A stretch of 47,278 nt of DNA from Nitratiruptor sp. Its GTDB lineage: Bacteria > Campylobacterota > Campylobacteria > Campylobacterales > Nitratiruptoraceae. The position numbers and the translations under genes are program-made. Under the pieces are notes generated by a model that was not told the origin of the DNA, ran no database searches, and was given only the letters and a program-made list of their open reading frames with translations. The DNA is taken from contig WGBC01000098.1 in the NCBI GenBank assembly GCA_015494535.1, positions 1-47,278 on the forward strand, written 5' to 3'. This document shows positions 20,705 through 25,865 of this stretch, in pieces. Every line of letters starts with the position of its first letter. Within the stretch, counting starts at the first letter, position 1.

Positions 20705-21565
20705 CTAAAACTTCAATGAAGCCAAAAACTCTTTCGCTGCAATCCTGCCAACTTCAATCACCTCATAGGCTTTGTGAAAGTCGTATGTGCCGCACACATC
20801 TTTAGAGATCTCAATGAGATAATCTGGAGGATAACTAGCCAACCTATATCTTGTGAGCGCCTTTTGCATAGCATCAAAGCTCTTATCCATTATATCAAAC
20901 ATACTATACTCATCATCATCTTCAATTATCTTTTTTGCTCCCTTTTTAATAAATTCGATACCTTTGACAATTCGTTTTCGCTTTACTTCCAAATTTTTTG
21001 GCAAAGTTATAGCAGGATGCTTCTTATCTGCATAGAGATTGACAGCTATAATCATATCGCTATGATCGCTCATCGTTGGCGCTACTGGCAAAGGATTGAG
21101 CACTCCACCATCTACTAGCAGCATACCGTTTATCTCTACTGGAGTAAAAAAGCTGGGAATAGAGATAGAGGCGCGAATGGCTCTGAGAAGATCTCCTTCT
21201 TGAAACCATATCTCTTTGTTGTTTTGAATATCTGTTGCAACTGCAGTAAATTTAATAGGCAAATCCTCTATTTTGCGCTCTCCTACAATCTCTTGCAGTT
21301 TTTGAAAAACCTTCTCTCCCCTAATAAAGCCTCTCTTATCAAAACTTATATCAAAAAGCCCCACCACATCCCATACATCCAGCTCCAATACCCACTCTTT
21401 ATACGCCTCAAGCCCTCCAGCAGCATAGAGCCCCCCTATCAAAGATCCCATAGAGCAACCACTAATAGAGATAATCTCAAATCCAGCTCTTTGCAGCTCC
21501 TCAATCACGCCAATATGCGCATAACCTCTAGCCCCTCCGCTGCCTAGCACCAAAGATACTCTCAT
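20705..21565 (-). CDS. Patatin-like phospholipase (RssA-like)
   Basis: LVLGSGGARGYAHIGVI oxyanion loop, GCSMGSL nucleophile elbow, LVDGGVLNPLP dyad motif. Confidence 0.93.
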   Translation of the reverse strand: MRVSLVLGSGGARGYAHIGVIEELQRAGFEIISISGCSMGSLIGGLYAAGGLEAYKEWVLELDVWDVVGLFDISFDKRGFIRGEKVFQKLQEIVGERKIEDLPIKFTAVATDIQNNKEIWFQEGDLLRAIRASISIPSFFTPVEINGMLLVDGGVLNPLPVAPTMSDHSDMIIAVNLYADKKHPAITLPKNLEVKRKRIVKGIEFIKKGAKKIIEDDDEYSMFDIMDKSFDAMQKALTRYRLASYPPDYLIEISKDVCGTYDFHKAYEVIEVGRIAAKEFLASLKF

Positions 21566-22827
21566 TGCAGCGCCTCCTTGAAGCTATCTAGCCCAATCAT
21601 CAAAGCAATCTGACTCTTCTTGGCAAAAATCTGCGCTTTTACTGCCTCTAAAGCAGCTTTTGCCTCCGCCTCTTTGGCAATGGCTCGGCTAAGCTCATCT
21701 GCGCTCGCTAATTGATTATTAAAGCGTCCCTTAGTTAATTTTGCATACTCTTTGGCAGCTACCAACTGCTTTTTTGCCCACTCTACACGCGAGCGTAAAG
21801 CTTCAAGCTCAACTTTTGCATTTTGCAACTGAACTCTTGCCTTTTGGACATAGTCATTATAAAAGCTTCTTTTTGCCATATAAGCTTTTTTAGCGGCCTC
21901 GAGCCTATATTTATCGCCAAAACCGCTAAAGATATTGTATTGCACTCCTACGCCTATATAACTTTCATCGGCGTTGCGGTATCCATCCCCGTTAAGCGCC
22001 AAACTATCACCAAATCGTTTGAGGCTAGCTTCTAGTGCAATTGTTGGTAAAAATTTTGATTTTGCTAGCGCAATATCGCTTTTGGCAATAGCAAGGGTTT
22101 TTCGTAGCATCGCAATATCTGCTCTTTGCAAGAGATCCCCCTCATTGGCATCTTGCATAGCAGGAAGCGCCAAAGCTTTTGGCACCTCTTTACTTAAATA
22201 GTGCAGCATATTTTGCAACTGCTTTGCTTGTGCTTTTAGCTTAGTTATTTGCGCTTTCATCTCATACATTTTCGCCTCTATATTATAGACTTCGCTTAGA
22301 GGAACCAACTCTTGCTCATAAAAGCCCTTGGCTTTTTCATACGCTAGCTTTAGAGCTTCATACCCTTTTTGCAAAGCATGCAGCTGCTGATTTGTGGCAT
22401 AAAGCGATGCATACAACGATGCCGCCTGCATATAGAGATTGCGCTTAAGATCCCTTTTTTCCAATGTGCTGCGCAGGTAATTTAGCTTACTTTTTTGGAT
22501 CATAGAAGATATGGCAAATCCGCTAAAGATAGGATAGCGCAAACTCACTTCACCTCTTATTTGCGTCTTTTTGCCCATAGGAAATGCCGAGACCGGCATA
22601 TTTGGTAGATGCAGATACATTGTAGGTGTCTCTTTAAGCCTTGCAGCGCTTAGCTTCATATCTAGAGTAGGGAGGTTTTGTGCCCTGCTAGCTTGGTAGA
22701 GTTTTTTATTTGCAAACACTTCCAATCTTTTGGCCTGCACCAAGTCCATACTATCAATACCCTTTATCACTTGATGAAATTCGCTTGCCATCGTCAATAT
22801 TGGCAACAATACTATTAAGACTCGCAT
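21562..22827 (-). CDS. TolC-family outer-membrane efflux protein
   Basis: Signal peptide, repeated coiled-coil architecture, YPIFSGF and VGVQYNIFSGFGDKYRLEAAKKAY motifs. Confidence 0.88.
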   Translation of the reverse strand: MRVLIVLLPILTMASEFHQVIKGIDSMDLVQAKRLEVFANKKLYQASRAQNLPTLDMKLSAARLKETPTMYLHLPNMPVSAFPMGKKTQIRGEVSLRYPIFSGFAISSMIQKSKLNYLRSTLEKRDLKRNLYMQAASLYASLYATNQQLHALQKGYEALKLAYEKAKGFYEQELVPLSEVYNIEAKMYEMKAQITKLKAQAKQLQNMLHYLSKEVPKALALPAMQDANEGDLLQRADIAMLRKTLAIAKSDIALAKSKFLPTIALEASLKRFGDSLALNGDGYRNADESYIGVGVQYNIFSGFGDKYRLEAAKKAYMAKRSFYNDYVQKARVQLQNAKVELEALRSRVEWAKKQLVAAKEYAKLTKGRFNNQLASADELSRAIAKEAEAKAALEAVKAQIFAKKSQIALMIGLDSFKEALQ

Positions 22828-24362
22828 CTACTACTCCTTGGTAAAAATAGCGCCACAACAAAGAGGCTTCCTACAACCGCCCAGTAGCCTGCATGCATAA
22901 AAGTGTTGTAAAAGCCGTAGTTGTAGCTCATAAAAAGCTCAAAATTCCTAAACATCTCCTCCACAACCTCCCAACTTGCTCCCATAAGGCTTTGGATTTG
23001 ATGCAAAAAGTGCTCCACGTACTCCCTATTTTGCACTTCATTCATTCTATCAAAATGCATAGCCTTGAAATACTCCATATTATTAGTAGCCAAGGCAGTG
23101 CCAAAACTCCCACCCACAAAGCGCACATAATCCATTAGCACGATGGCAAGCTCGCTTTTCGTCTCAGGCGCGCTTTGCATAATGAGCACGGTTACCGGAG
23201 CAAAAAACATCCCCATACCTATCCCAAAAGGGATGGTTAGCAAGATTGCTTGAGTGAGAGGGGTGTAGTAGTTGAGATTTGGCAAGAAAAGAAGTGCGGT
23301 AAAGAGATAAATAATTGTAGCGATCGCTACGGTTTTCTTGGCTCCAATCTTATCGCTTAAAATCCCGGCAACCGGCGAAAAGATCCCGATAAAAAGCGCA
23401 AAGGCAAAAACGGCAATCCCTGCTTGCAATGTGGGCAAGCCCTTGATATGCTCATAATACACTGGCAAAAGGTAAAAGTATTGATACATGCTAAAGCCAA
23501 GCACAAAAAAGTAGATAAAGATCCCATTGGTAAAGTCGCTGTTTTTAAAGAGTGAAAAGTCTATGAGTTTTTTGGCAAAGCTTATTTCACTAAGAATGTA
23601 GAGCAGATACCCAATAATTGCAGCAAAGAGCAAAACGCCAATCGTTATGGAGCTAAACCACCCAAGCTGCTGCCCTTTACTAAGCATGATGAGTAGTGCA
23701 ATGGTAGCAAATGAAAGGAAAAACAAAGAGATGAAATTGATATCGATCTTTTCAAAAAAGCGCTCTTTTGGCAGATAGATCCAGCCAGCCATAACCAACA
23801 AAACCCCAATTGGCACATTGATAAAAAAGACCATCCTCCAGTTGTAATATTCAGTTAAATACCCTCCAATGGTGGGTCCTAGAGCTGGGGCAAAACTTAC
23901 TCCCAGAGCAAAAATCCCCATCGCTAGTCCCTTTTGGTGGGGAGGAAAGTAGCTAAAAACCATTACGTGGCTAGTCACCATAATAAGCGCTTCCGCCGCT
24001 CCCTGCACCACGCGCGCGATTATGATCATAGCCAATGTATCGGAGATTCCGCATACAAATGAGGCCAATGCAAATAAAAATACGCCACTTAAATACACTG
24101 CTTTGCTGCCAAAGCGTTTAATCAGATATTCACATACCAAAAGCCCAATTGCAGCTGCGATCATATAGCTAGTAATTATCCACTGCACCCCATACATGTC
24201 GGTTGCTAGTGGGGCTGTTAGCTTTGGTACTATCACATCCACAACTGTGGTATCCAAAATCGCCATAAAAGCCCCCACCATGACGATAAAGGTAAAGATT
24301 GCCCGCTCTTTTGGGGTGATGTCCCAGGTGTTTTGAGACATTGGACATTGGACATTAGACAT
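22815..24362 (-). CDS. DHA2-family (EmrB-like) MFS exporter
   Basis: FMAILDTTVVDVIVPKL, GGYLTEYYNWRMVFFINVPIG; about 14 TM. N-terminal MSNVQCPMSQ is encoded by the heptad repeat. Confidence 0.93.
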   Translation of the reverse strand: MSNVQCPMSQNTWDITPKERAIFTFIVMVGAFMAILDTTVVDVIVPKLTAPLATDMYGVQWIITSYMIAAAIGLLVCEYLIKRFGSKAVYLSGVFLFALASFVCGISDTLAMIIIARVVQGAAEALIMVTSHVMVFSYFPPHQKGLAMGIFALGVSFAPALGPTIGGYLTEYYNWRMVFFINVPIGVLLVMAGWIYLPKERFFEKIDINFISLFFLSFATIALLIMLSKGQQLGWFSSITIGVLLFAAIIGYLLYILSEISFAKKLIDFSLFKNSDFTNGIFIYFFVLGFSMYQYFYLLPVYYEHIKGLPTLQAGIAVFAFALFIGIFSPVAGILSDKIGAKKTVAIATIIYLFTALLFLPNLNYYTPLTQAILLTIPFGIGMGMFFAPVTVLIMQSAPETKSELAIVLMDYVRFVGGSFGTALATNNMEYFKAMHFDRMNEVQNREYVEHFLHQIQSLMGASWEVVEEMFRNFELFMSYNYGFYNTFMHAGYWAVVGSLFVVALFLPRSSRCES

Positions 24363-24364
24363 TA
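24337..24364. repeat. Left heptanucleotide array (GACATTG x2, GACATTA x2)
   Basis: GACATTG GACATTG GACATTA GACATTA read directly. Confidence 0.95.
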
Positions 24365-24723
24365 GTAATTCCTGTTTTGGCTATAAAAGTATTTAACTGC
24401 TTGCCTAACTTTTCAAGTCTAAAAAGAAAAAATTCATACAAATTTTTATCTATCAGTTCTCTTTGATACAACAAAAATATCCAATGTTTAGCTTCCCATA
24501 AACTACCCCTTGCATTGTAAAAAAATCTTATATTATCCTTATAATGAAATCTTCCAAAATCTTCTGCAATATTAGCGCCGATAGAATCTATAGCTGACAA
24601 CACCTGCTTTCCCATGGAAAACTTTAAATCATTTGGCAACGTTACATATATATCCCAAATCTTCTTGCTCAAATCTATAGCACTTTTATAGACATCCAAG
24701 TTTCTAAGTTTTTGCAATGCCAA
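24355..24723 (-). CDS. Four-helix-bundle protein (S23 / 23S-rRNA intervening-sequence protein family)
   Basis: LRNLDVYKSAIDLSKKIWDIYVTLPNDLKFSMGKQVLSAIDSIGANIAEDFGRF...ARGSLWEAKHWIFLL: S23/Avd-like signature. No ATG: TTG at 24717 (GGAGG-6nt-TTG) looks more plausible than TTG at 24723. Confidence 0.92.
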   Translation of the reverse strand: MALQKLRNLDVYKSAIDLSKKIWDIYVTLPNDLKFSMGKQVLSAIDSIGANIAEDFGRFHYKDNIRFFYNARGSLWEAKHWIFLLYQRELIDKNLYEFFLFRLEKLGKQLNTFIAKTGITNV

Positions 24724-24727
24724 CCTC

Positions 24728-24748
24728 CAATGTCCAATGTCTAATGTC
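24728..24748. repeat. Right heptanucleotide array (CAATGTC x2, TAATGTC x1), inverted relative to the left array
   Basis: CAATGTC CAATGTC TAATGTC = reverse complement GACATTA GACATTG GACATTG. Confidence 0.95.
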
Positions 24749-25865
24749 TTCTCTCTATAGCCACACTCGCTCCCATGCCAACTCTCAGATCTGGCGTTGG
24801 ATTGTCAATGGAAATGCGCACGATGAAGCGTTGATCAAGCTTGGTAAACTCTCCACTTGCTATGTCTCTTGGCACAAGGCTAAAAGTAGCAGCACTTGCT
24901 GGTAAAATTTTTCTCACTTCTCCTGTATACTCTCTATCCTTAAAAGCATCTATTGTGATTTTGACGCTGTTGCCAACCTCTACGCCCTTTAATTTTCTCT
25001 CACTCAAGAGCACCTCAATATGCAAATCTTTAGGATTTACTAGAGCATAGATTGGCGCTCCTTTGTCCACCACGCGATAGCGATTGACAAATCTTTTAGC
25101 CACCACTCCATCAAAAGGCGCTTTGAGATAGCTATAGGCAATTTTATTCTCTATCTCTTGCAAGGACTTTTGCAAAGCCTGTTTCTCTTGCTGCATAGAG
25201 GCAATCATTTTTGCAAGCAGTTTTACCTCATTTTTGCTATTTTCCAAAAGCCTCTCTTGCACCGCTACATCATCTAGATCTTTTTGTAGGATCTGTAGCT
25301 GCGTCTCTTTGGCGGCAATGCTATTTTGCAAAGTGGCAAGTTTGGTTGAGGCAAGTTCAAATTTCTCTTTTTGGATAAGATTCTTTCTATAAAGATTTTG
25401 CAGCCTCTTTAGATCTCTTCTTTGCTGCAAAGCTTGCACCCTCATAGCTTCTATTTCATAATTTGCAGCTTTTATAGCTAAATGGAGCTTCTCTTTTTTA
25501 ATAGCAATCTCATTCTTTTTTAAAGCAATATCTTTTGCTATTTTTTGGCTCTTAATCTGCTGCGCTTGGATCTTTCTATCCAGAGCCTCTATTTGGTGAG
25601 ACACTTTCTCTTTTGCAACCAGGAAGTCTTTGGTATCGATTTTTGCCAAAAGCTCGCCAACCTTGACGCTATCACCCTCCAGCTTAGTAAGCTCATCAAT
25701 CTTCCCGCTTACCTTAAAACTCAGCCACACCAACGAATCGGTGCGCACGAAAGCCGCATCGCTCACCGCATTATGGGTGCGATACATCACATAATCAAAT
25801 CCCAAAAAGGCAAAAACGAGTATTAGCAGTATCAAAAGGATCTTGGCGATAGACTTCATTATCAC
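24741..25865 (-). CDS. HlyD/EmrA-like membrane-fusion protein
   Basis: N-terminal TM, coiled coil, YLKAPFDGVVAKRFVNRYRVVDKGAPIYALV lipoyl/barrel motif; ends ERRH-TAG inside the right heptad array. Confidence 0.92.
   Translation of the reverse strand: MIMKSIAKILLILLILVFAFLGFDYVMYRTHNAVSDAAFVRTDSLVWLSFKVSGKIDELTKLEGDSVKVGELLAKIDTKDFLVAKEKVSHQIEALDRKIQAQQIKSQKIAKDIALKKNEIAIKKEKLHLAIKAANYEIEAMRVQALQQRRDLKRLQNLYRKNLIQKEKFELASTKLATLQNSIAAKETQLQILQKDLDDVAVQERLLENSKNEVKLLAKMIASMQQEKQALQKSLQEIENKIAYSYLKAPFDGVVAKRFVNRYRVVDKGAPIYALVNPKDLHIEVLLSERKLKGVEVGNSVKITIDAFKDREYTGEVRKILPASAATFSLVPRDIASGEFTKLDQRFIVRISIDNPTPDLRVGMGASVAIERRH

Follow-up and report, generated by a model that had tools for sequence, protein, structure and literature searches.

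An S23 gene between complementary heptanucleotide arrays at an emrA-emrB junction: a candidate mobile cassette of the intervening-sequence type

Why does a gene of the S23 family lie between emrA and emrB, two genes of one efflux operon? The gene in question occurs in a 47,278-nt stretch of Nitratiruptor sp. DNA (Campylobacterota; contig WGBC01000098.1 of assembly GCA_015494535.1), which we call the window, and it is bracketed there by two short tandem arrays of one heptanucleotide in opposite orientation. An initial annotation, made from the letters alone, had described this open reading frame (ORF) inside inverted 7-mer arrays and proposed that the whole is a small mobile cassette; the arrangement itself is borne out by direct reading, by Tandem Repeats Finder (TRF) and by profile matches to PF05635 and TIGR02436. 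We consider it probable, though by no means secure, that the window element is a mobile cassette of the intervening-sequence (IVS) type, consisting of an S23/IVP gene and convergent, complementary heptad arrays and inserted at the emrA-emrB junction of a protein operon. At the level of sequence, this anatomy, the patchy occupancy of the site and the generality of such arms around S23 genes are firmly indicated.

Anatomy of the element and its likeness to ribosomal intervening sequences

On the plus strand the arrays read (GACATTG)2(GACATTA)2 at 24337-24364 and (CAATGTC)2(TAATGTC) at 24728-24748, and TRF recovered both independently. The sequence GACATTRGACATTR occurs five times in the 47 kb, always within the two arrays, against 0 expected from 100 dinucleotide-preserving shuffles. 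The S23 gene lies on the minus strand. Read in its sense, the 5' arm (24728..24748, minus strand) is GACATTA-GACATTG-GACATTG, followed by a Shine-Dalgarno (SD)-like GAGG, and the 3' arm (24337..24364, minus strand) is (TAATGTC)2(CAATGTC)2. The ORF (24355..24723, minus strand) starts with TTG, stops at a TAA within the 3' array and encodes a 122-aa four-helix-bundle protein of the 23S_rRNA_IVP family (PF05635, 90 bits, E 1.3e-25; also TIGR02436), so that a single S23/IVP gene and two convergent, mutually complementary arrays make up an element of ~410 bp in total. When the 5' flank is aligned with the reverse complement of the 3' flank, the arms score 38 against a control 99th percentile of 25-30, and in the predicted transcript they pair over 16+7 bp (RNA fold, z = -2.7).

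The arrays also carry signals of the host operon. At the upstream end the minus strand reads GCT ATA GAG AGA AGA CAT TAG, the last triplet being the emrA stop, then ACATTGGACATTGGAGG, then TTGGCA TTG in the S23 start region; at the downstream end it reads GGA ATT ACT AAT GTC TAA, ending with the S23 stop, then TGTCCAATGTCCAATGTCTCAAAAC, which belongs to emrB. Three signals therefore lie inside the arrays: the emrA stop (AGA CAT TAG), the S23 stop (ACT AAT GTC TAA) and the first ATG of emrB (ATG TCT AAT GTC CAA). The gene on the upstream side (24741..25865, minus strand) encodes an EmrA-like periplasmic adaptor whose best match, TIGR00998, is under that model's cut-off, and the gene on the downstream side (22815..24362, minus strand) encodes an EmrB-like exporter of the DHA2 major facilitator superfamily (TIGR00711, 443 bits, over cut-off) with an array-encoded N-terminus, MSNVQCPMS.

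How does this element relate to the IVSs of 23S ribosomal RNA (rRNA)? In Coxiella burnetii the 23S IVS carries an S23 ORF after tandem heptamers (GACAGAT), has a 28-bp terminal stem and is excised by RNase III (PMC4990558). The likeness extends to a single S23 ORF of ~120 aa in a total of about 420-440 bp, and to tandem heptamers upstream of the ORF and complementary ends forming a long stem, both of which the window element has; it differs in being located between two protein genes, outside 23S, and in having arms that also give the host operon stop, SD and start signals. A genome of the same order as the window, G085, holds three identical S23 genes, and the one checked sits in a 23S gene between GAATACA/GATTACA arrays. 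The Coxiella and G085 anatomies imply that the emr element and rRNA IVSs are built alike and that the address alone differs: judged by its sequence, the window element would work in the manner of an IVS, although it is not one of the 23S kind. The spread into operons as well as rRNA that the initial annotation had envisaged is supported by the operon junctions described below together with the 23S copy in G085.

Patchy occupancy of the emrA-emrB junction

The mobile reading had been expected to fail if close relatives all carried the gene. Of the 16 genomes of the genus, 3 have a PF05635 gene, in one copy that is located at the emr site in each case; in nine others the emrA-emrB junction could be read and is empty. 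Empty junctions in the order as a whole measure 31-82 nt, plus one of 92 nt, and about a third of the readable junctions hold an S23 gene; the earlier statement that such operons normally have no gene here thus holds for the remainder and fails for that third. On the EmrB tree of the order, 11 of 36 placed loci are filled, and 7-8 changes between filled and empty are required. One junction (G090) has decayed to a remnant, in which an N-terminal piece of S23 and a GATATTG array survive. In another (G033, locus L193), an ATPase-like gene occupies the usual place of S23 beside an apparent surviving 3' heptad array (TTTTCACTTTTAACTTTGCAC).

The units at orthologous emr sites differ: GACATTR (G000, G202), GTCATTR (G203, G103, G003, G174), GGAATTR (G077), the octad GTNTATTR (G160) and AATGGAG (G048), the last in an operon that is more distant. 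Most of these elements have one unit common to both arms; G005, whose arms have diverged, is an exception. By unit, the S23 genes pair as L001 with L061 (GACATTG) and L035 with L050 (GTCATTR), whereas the EmrB tree joins L035 with L061 (support 99); the L035-L050 branch of the S23 tree is weakly supported (86/61). At the emr site, the array unit appears to follow S23 rather than the host.

Complementary arms around S23 genes across bacteria

Are arms a peculiarity of this operon? We gathered S23 loci by protein similarity only: a single scan over 84,980 species gave 80 named loci, to which loci of the order, plasmids and viral contigs were added. Represented in the named set are Bacteroidota, Campylobacterota, Acidobacteriota, Nitrospirota, KSB1, several groups of the candidate phyla radiation (CPR), Verrucomicrobiota, Planctomycetota, Desulfobacterota, SAR324, Pseudomonadota and Bacillota, and cyanobacteria entered through the plasmid search. 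Arms were scored by local alignment of the 5' flank with the reverse-complemented 3' flank, with a threshold of at least 28. The median over 216 S23 elements was 37 and 166 of them (77%) reached the threshold, as against a median of 16 and 2.1% when partners were swapped; the named set, chosen on protein alone, gave 56/82. S23 ORFs elsewhere therefore do not generally lack arrays, the other outcome on which the mobile reading had been expected to founder. A first set of 165 elements gave the same outcome against random sites and neighbouring genes. Among neighbouring genes 6.5% scored at least 28, and the high scorers inspected were another S23, repeats resembling miniature inverted-repeat transposable elements (MITEs) and a DUF559-like gene. 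Complementary arms were also present around 15 of 19 S23 genes in viral contigs.

The dominant period is 7, with 8 second, and it is common to both arms in 84 of 89 elements. S23 lies on the same strand between co-directional genes in 136 of 158 cases. In the S23 sense the left arm is poor in C (336 of 4104) and has only a slight excess of stop codons, which fall in 2.1 of 3 frames as compared with 1.7 in shuffled arms. These comparisons point clearly to a unit that is specific to each element and to arms that change in concert, and they place a widespread family of putative S23-plus-arms cassettes in more than a dozen bacterial phyla.

Two further loci have inverted repeats of a different kind. 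In Geobacter sp. AOG1 (L139, 5662-6106), an ORF judged by eye to be a DUF559-like endonuclease lies within near-perfect inverted CT-rich repeats (CCTCTTCCCCCTCCCTGACCCTCCCCC...) and may represent another type of small cassette, one whose inverted arms are of low complexity; in L138 (684-1953 and 5629-6145), inverted CGTACAAGTGAGTGACACAACGAAA repeats surround unrelated genes in a MITE-like manner. Phage carriage of S23, considered at one stage, was dropped, as 50,697 phage records gave no match.

The protein is the constant part of these elements. The window S23 is predicted with high confidence (pLDDT 92) to adopt a fold that superposes on the S23 structures 2GSC and 2RLD (TM about 0.9); S23 in 2GSC is a homopentamer. 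S23 is under strong purifying selection (median dN/dS 0.067 over 25 unsaturated pairs). Among 170 S23 proteins Q34 and E71 (100%), E48 (99%), R37, S41 and N45 (numbering of L014) are conserved, a pattern that would fit a specific active or binding site better than a generic bundle. More distantly, the predicted fold matches complexes of Avd, the accessory protein of diversity-generating retroelements (DGRs; 4DWL and 8UB7, TM about 0.8), in agreement with the structural relationship that the initial annotation had pointed to. Could the element then be the relic of a DGR, and S23 a stray Avd? The match to the Avd model NF033474 is weak and below the family cut-off (21 bits, cut-off 80); the Avd alignment does not conserve the six S23 residues; Avd genes of retroelements, our control for fold, had complementary arms in 0 of 36 cases; and the genome of the window, a metagenome-assembled genome (MAG) that is 79% complete, has no match to the reverse transcriptase domain RVT_1 (PF00078). 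We regard this origin as scarcely credible.

Do the arms travel with the gene? For pairs of S23 proteins at different sites with less than 60% identity, arm likeness does not exceed that of composition-matched shuffles. At 70-80% identity, 35% of pairs have arm sequence in common (score at least 28; background about 1%), and above 80% both of the two available pairs do. The octad AGGCACAAAG is common to elements of Desulfobacteraceae, KSB1 and Nitrospirae whose S23s are about 67-71% identical. On these comparisons, S23 and its array unit are inherited together, even where site or phylum differs. Inverted ends, a short interior and hairpin derivatives that would be non-autonomous recall a conventional terminal inverted repeat (TIR) transposon or MITE, in which S23 would be cargo and a separate transposase would do the moving. 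Such elements have fixed ends, whereas here the end sequence varies from element to element and is tandemly repeated; the S23 elements contain no transposase ORF, no target duplication was seen among the strongly diverged emr junctions, and S23 alone is constant, which together make a conventional transposon very unlikely.

The sites themselves tell two histories. With gene names at recurrent junctions assigned by eye from translated flanks, S23 genes at sucC-sucD, nadD and pheA are monophyletic in the S23 tree, and those at hldD-hldE, murI, thiolase and other junctions are not; therefore old occupancy and repeated insertion both occur. The monophyletic junctions, the concentration of emr-site S23s mostly in one subclade and the low dN/dS suit a different account, in which the element is a domesticated intercistronic module: an ancient regulator or RNA-processing device, inherited vertically, by which the relative expression of neighbouring subunit genes is set, and which is now immobile and repeatedly lost. 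Recurrent junctions also often split partners of one complex or pathway (by eye: emrA-emrB, sucC-sucD, sdhA-sdhB, cysD-cysN, fadB-fadA). Against it stand the polyphyletic sites, the patchy occupancy on the EmrB tree, the frequent location of nearest S23 relatives at unrelated sites with units common across phyla, and insertions in 23S rRNA and on cyanobacterial plasmids, at times antisense to host genes. We hold domestication to be rather unlikely, but it is the most serious alternative to a mobile cassette.

One plasmid-borne copy lies in pNe_5 of Nostoc edaphicum (L188, 2483-2851), antisense between ribonucleotide reductase subunit genes; its (GGGAGTA)n arms are similar to the short tandem repeats already described from heterocystous cyanobacteria. 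A single Calothrix strain has the same S23 on two plasmids, and independent transposition between them was ruled out, because the surrounding genes are also in common.

Arrays without S23, and how a cassette might move

Arrays also occur apart from the gene. We counted dispersed arrays in 200 genomes of the order for three chosen units, GTCATTR, AGTGAAG and GACATTR, the counts including the S23 elements' own arms. For GTCATTR, 373 pairs fall in the 63 S23-bearing genomes and 4 in the 137 S23-free ones, with at least two in 10/63 versus 0/137 (p 6e-6, a value that, like the others given here, is optimistic because the genomes are phylogenetically related). AGTGAAG gave 126 in S23-bearing and 5 in S23-free genomes. 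Genomes with many copies often hold an S23 with the identical unit (GTCATTR in G103, G003 and G174; AGTGAAG in G174, G152 and G130), and a gene flanked by a repeat that is also dispersed in the same genome was found in these five and in G202 and G203. Most of the solo arrays sampled in G103 and G003 lie between genes, as single or convergent arrays; in G203 a GACATTG array of 19 units has its inverted partner at a distance of about 75 nt, and G202 has a heptad hairpin in an apparent 23S-5S spacer. For the units counted, solo arrays appear to be largely confined to S23-bearing genomes.

Slippage-prone heptads might instead arise anywhere, leaving S23 a bystander. Consistent with this, a gene resembling ACC deaminase/D-cysteine desulfhydrase (dcyD-like) carries in-frame heptads in up to three loops (L237, L253-L257; G036, G064, G018, G077, G103), its units differ among genomes, and between G064 and G036 its length changes by exactly 21 nt, or three heptads; solo arrays exist even in S23-free genomes, and heptad excess in bacteria was already known (PMC4692102). 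A bystander would hardly be expected to have arms in 77% of cases, against 2% in controls and none of the 36 Avd genes, nor would arms be mutually complementary with a common period, nor GTCATTR and AGTGAAG arrays concentrated in S23-bearing genomes, and we judge passive repeats an improbable explanation. Element-specific heptads, solo arrays without S23, even in frame in a coding gene, and sites that look long-occupied rather than freshly invaded all go beyond what the initial annotation had proposed.

Several observations weigh against a mobile cassette. The window's genome has no second copy of the element (MAG 79% complete), and its GACATTR repeat is confined to the two arms; some other genomes do not fit dispersal with the gene either. 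GACATTR is only weakly associated with S23 (76 versus 16; at least one array, p 0.6; at least five, p 0.009), and its arrays are present in the S23-free genomes G036 and G018, one of them in frame inside the ACC-deaminase-like gene. G117 and G025 are rich in GTCATTR arrays, yet none of their S23s that were read has GTCATTR arms. Nine of ten emr-site S23s fall inside one 11-member clade, a distribution that long-standing occupancy followed by losses would explain as well as repeated insertion would. No target-site duplication was seen at emr junctions, where the nearest empty junctions are too diverged, and these junctions include no closely related filled/empty pair; the insertion boundaries are fuzzy for these reasons. 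Finally, arm mismatches in the S23 sense are of A.C type (171) more than G.U type (95) and thus give no sign that sense-RNA pairing is selected; a sense-strand G.U wobble test, which probed the arms for RNA-level selection, came out with the opposite sign and was given no weight as support. The small mobile cassette is partly supported: it has come through on both counts by which it might have fallen, occupancy in relatives and arms elsewhere; its active transposition and an insertion mechanism of its own are hypothetical, and no clean boundary with a target-site duplication was seen.

How might an IVS-type cassette work? The S23 homopentamer would recognise the folded arms as RNA or single-stranded DNA (ssDNA) and might help to place or copy the element, or the arms alone, into transcribed intercistronic gaps, using host polymerases. 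The excess of A.C over G.U mismatches makes a DNA-level role, as an ssDNA hairpin, at least as likely. Arm complementarity could be maintained through template switching or selection. Transcription of the element would be tolerated because the arms supply stops in several frames, an SD sequence and a start codon, and because they fold to a duplex that RNase III may cut, as in rRNA IVSs.

A broader proposal, which we advance only tentatively, is that S23 proteins and heptad arrays together constitute a mobile system of a novel type that spans the bacteria. A small pentameric protein, with neither transposase nor reverse transcriptase, would set convergent 7-mer arrays, each templated by the other, into transcribed DNA and keep them there, and would carry its own gene along as a hairpin cassette; rRNA IVSs would be one niche and the long-noted intergenic heptanucleotide excess a result. 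A parallel is the RAYT gene (REP-associated tyrosine transposase) with its repetitive extragenic palindromic (REP) or REPIN sequences, one trans-acting gene amid inverted short repeats that are also dispersed genome-wide, as single or hairpin copies, where the gene is present. S23 and its heptads share the gene amid inverted repeats and, in some of the gene-bearing genomes, the dispersed copies; they differ in that S23 is a four-helix bundle rather than a Y1 tyrosine transposase and in that the repeats are tandem 7-mers of variable sequence, whereas REP is a fixed palindromic motif. Avd shares the fold of S23 and differs in its conserved residues and its lack of arms.

One hypothesis would thereby join three loose ends: orphan four-helix-bundle/S23 genes, which very many bacteria have, the origin of 23S IVSs and an unexplained heptanucleotide surplus. 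Should S23 prove to act on the arrays, insertion would here proceed with no known transposase, and a selfish repeat would furnish host operons with stops, starts, ribosome-binding sites and even the first residues of their proteins. For annotation, cassettes become recognisable, and mis-called starts such as MSNVQCPMS or MTNDQMTND avoidable.

S23-coding IVSs in 23S rRNA were already known, as was an excess of heptads in certain genomes, among them those of Xanthomonas, with GGGAATC, and Nostoc, with GGGGA(C/T)T (PMC4692102), and of Beggiatoaceae, with TAACTGA (PMC4679880). Those repeats resemble ours in being intergenic tandem heptads, with about 70 convergent pairs in Xanthomonas; the S23 and IVS terms looked for occur in neither paper. 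In the open-access literature searched, that of PMC, we found no report linking S23 with heptad arrays, and within that literature operon S23 genes between convergent, element-specific heptad arrays across bacteria, and dispersed heptads tracking S23, appear to be new.

Minor observations concern the emr operon and the repeats. The third gene of the host operon (21562..22827, minus strand) encodes a TolC-like outer membrane efflux protein (OEP, PF02321). In G200 (L047) another gene, possibly ferritin-like or CADD-type by eye and with no heptad arms noted, stands upstream of emrB in place of S23, and in G127 (L042) only the end of a similar gene lies upstream of emrB. The sequence GAAGTGAGAAGTGA, a reversed pattern used as a control, has many matches of its own (64 in G003, 20 in G173, 10 in G120), suggesting further heptad families in S23-bearing genomes.
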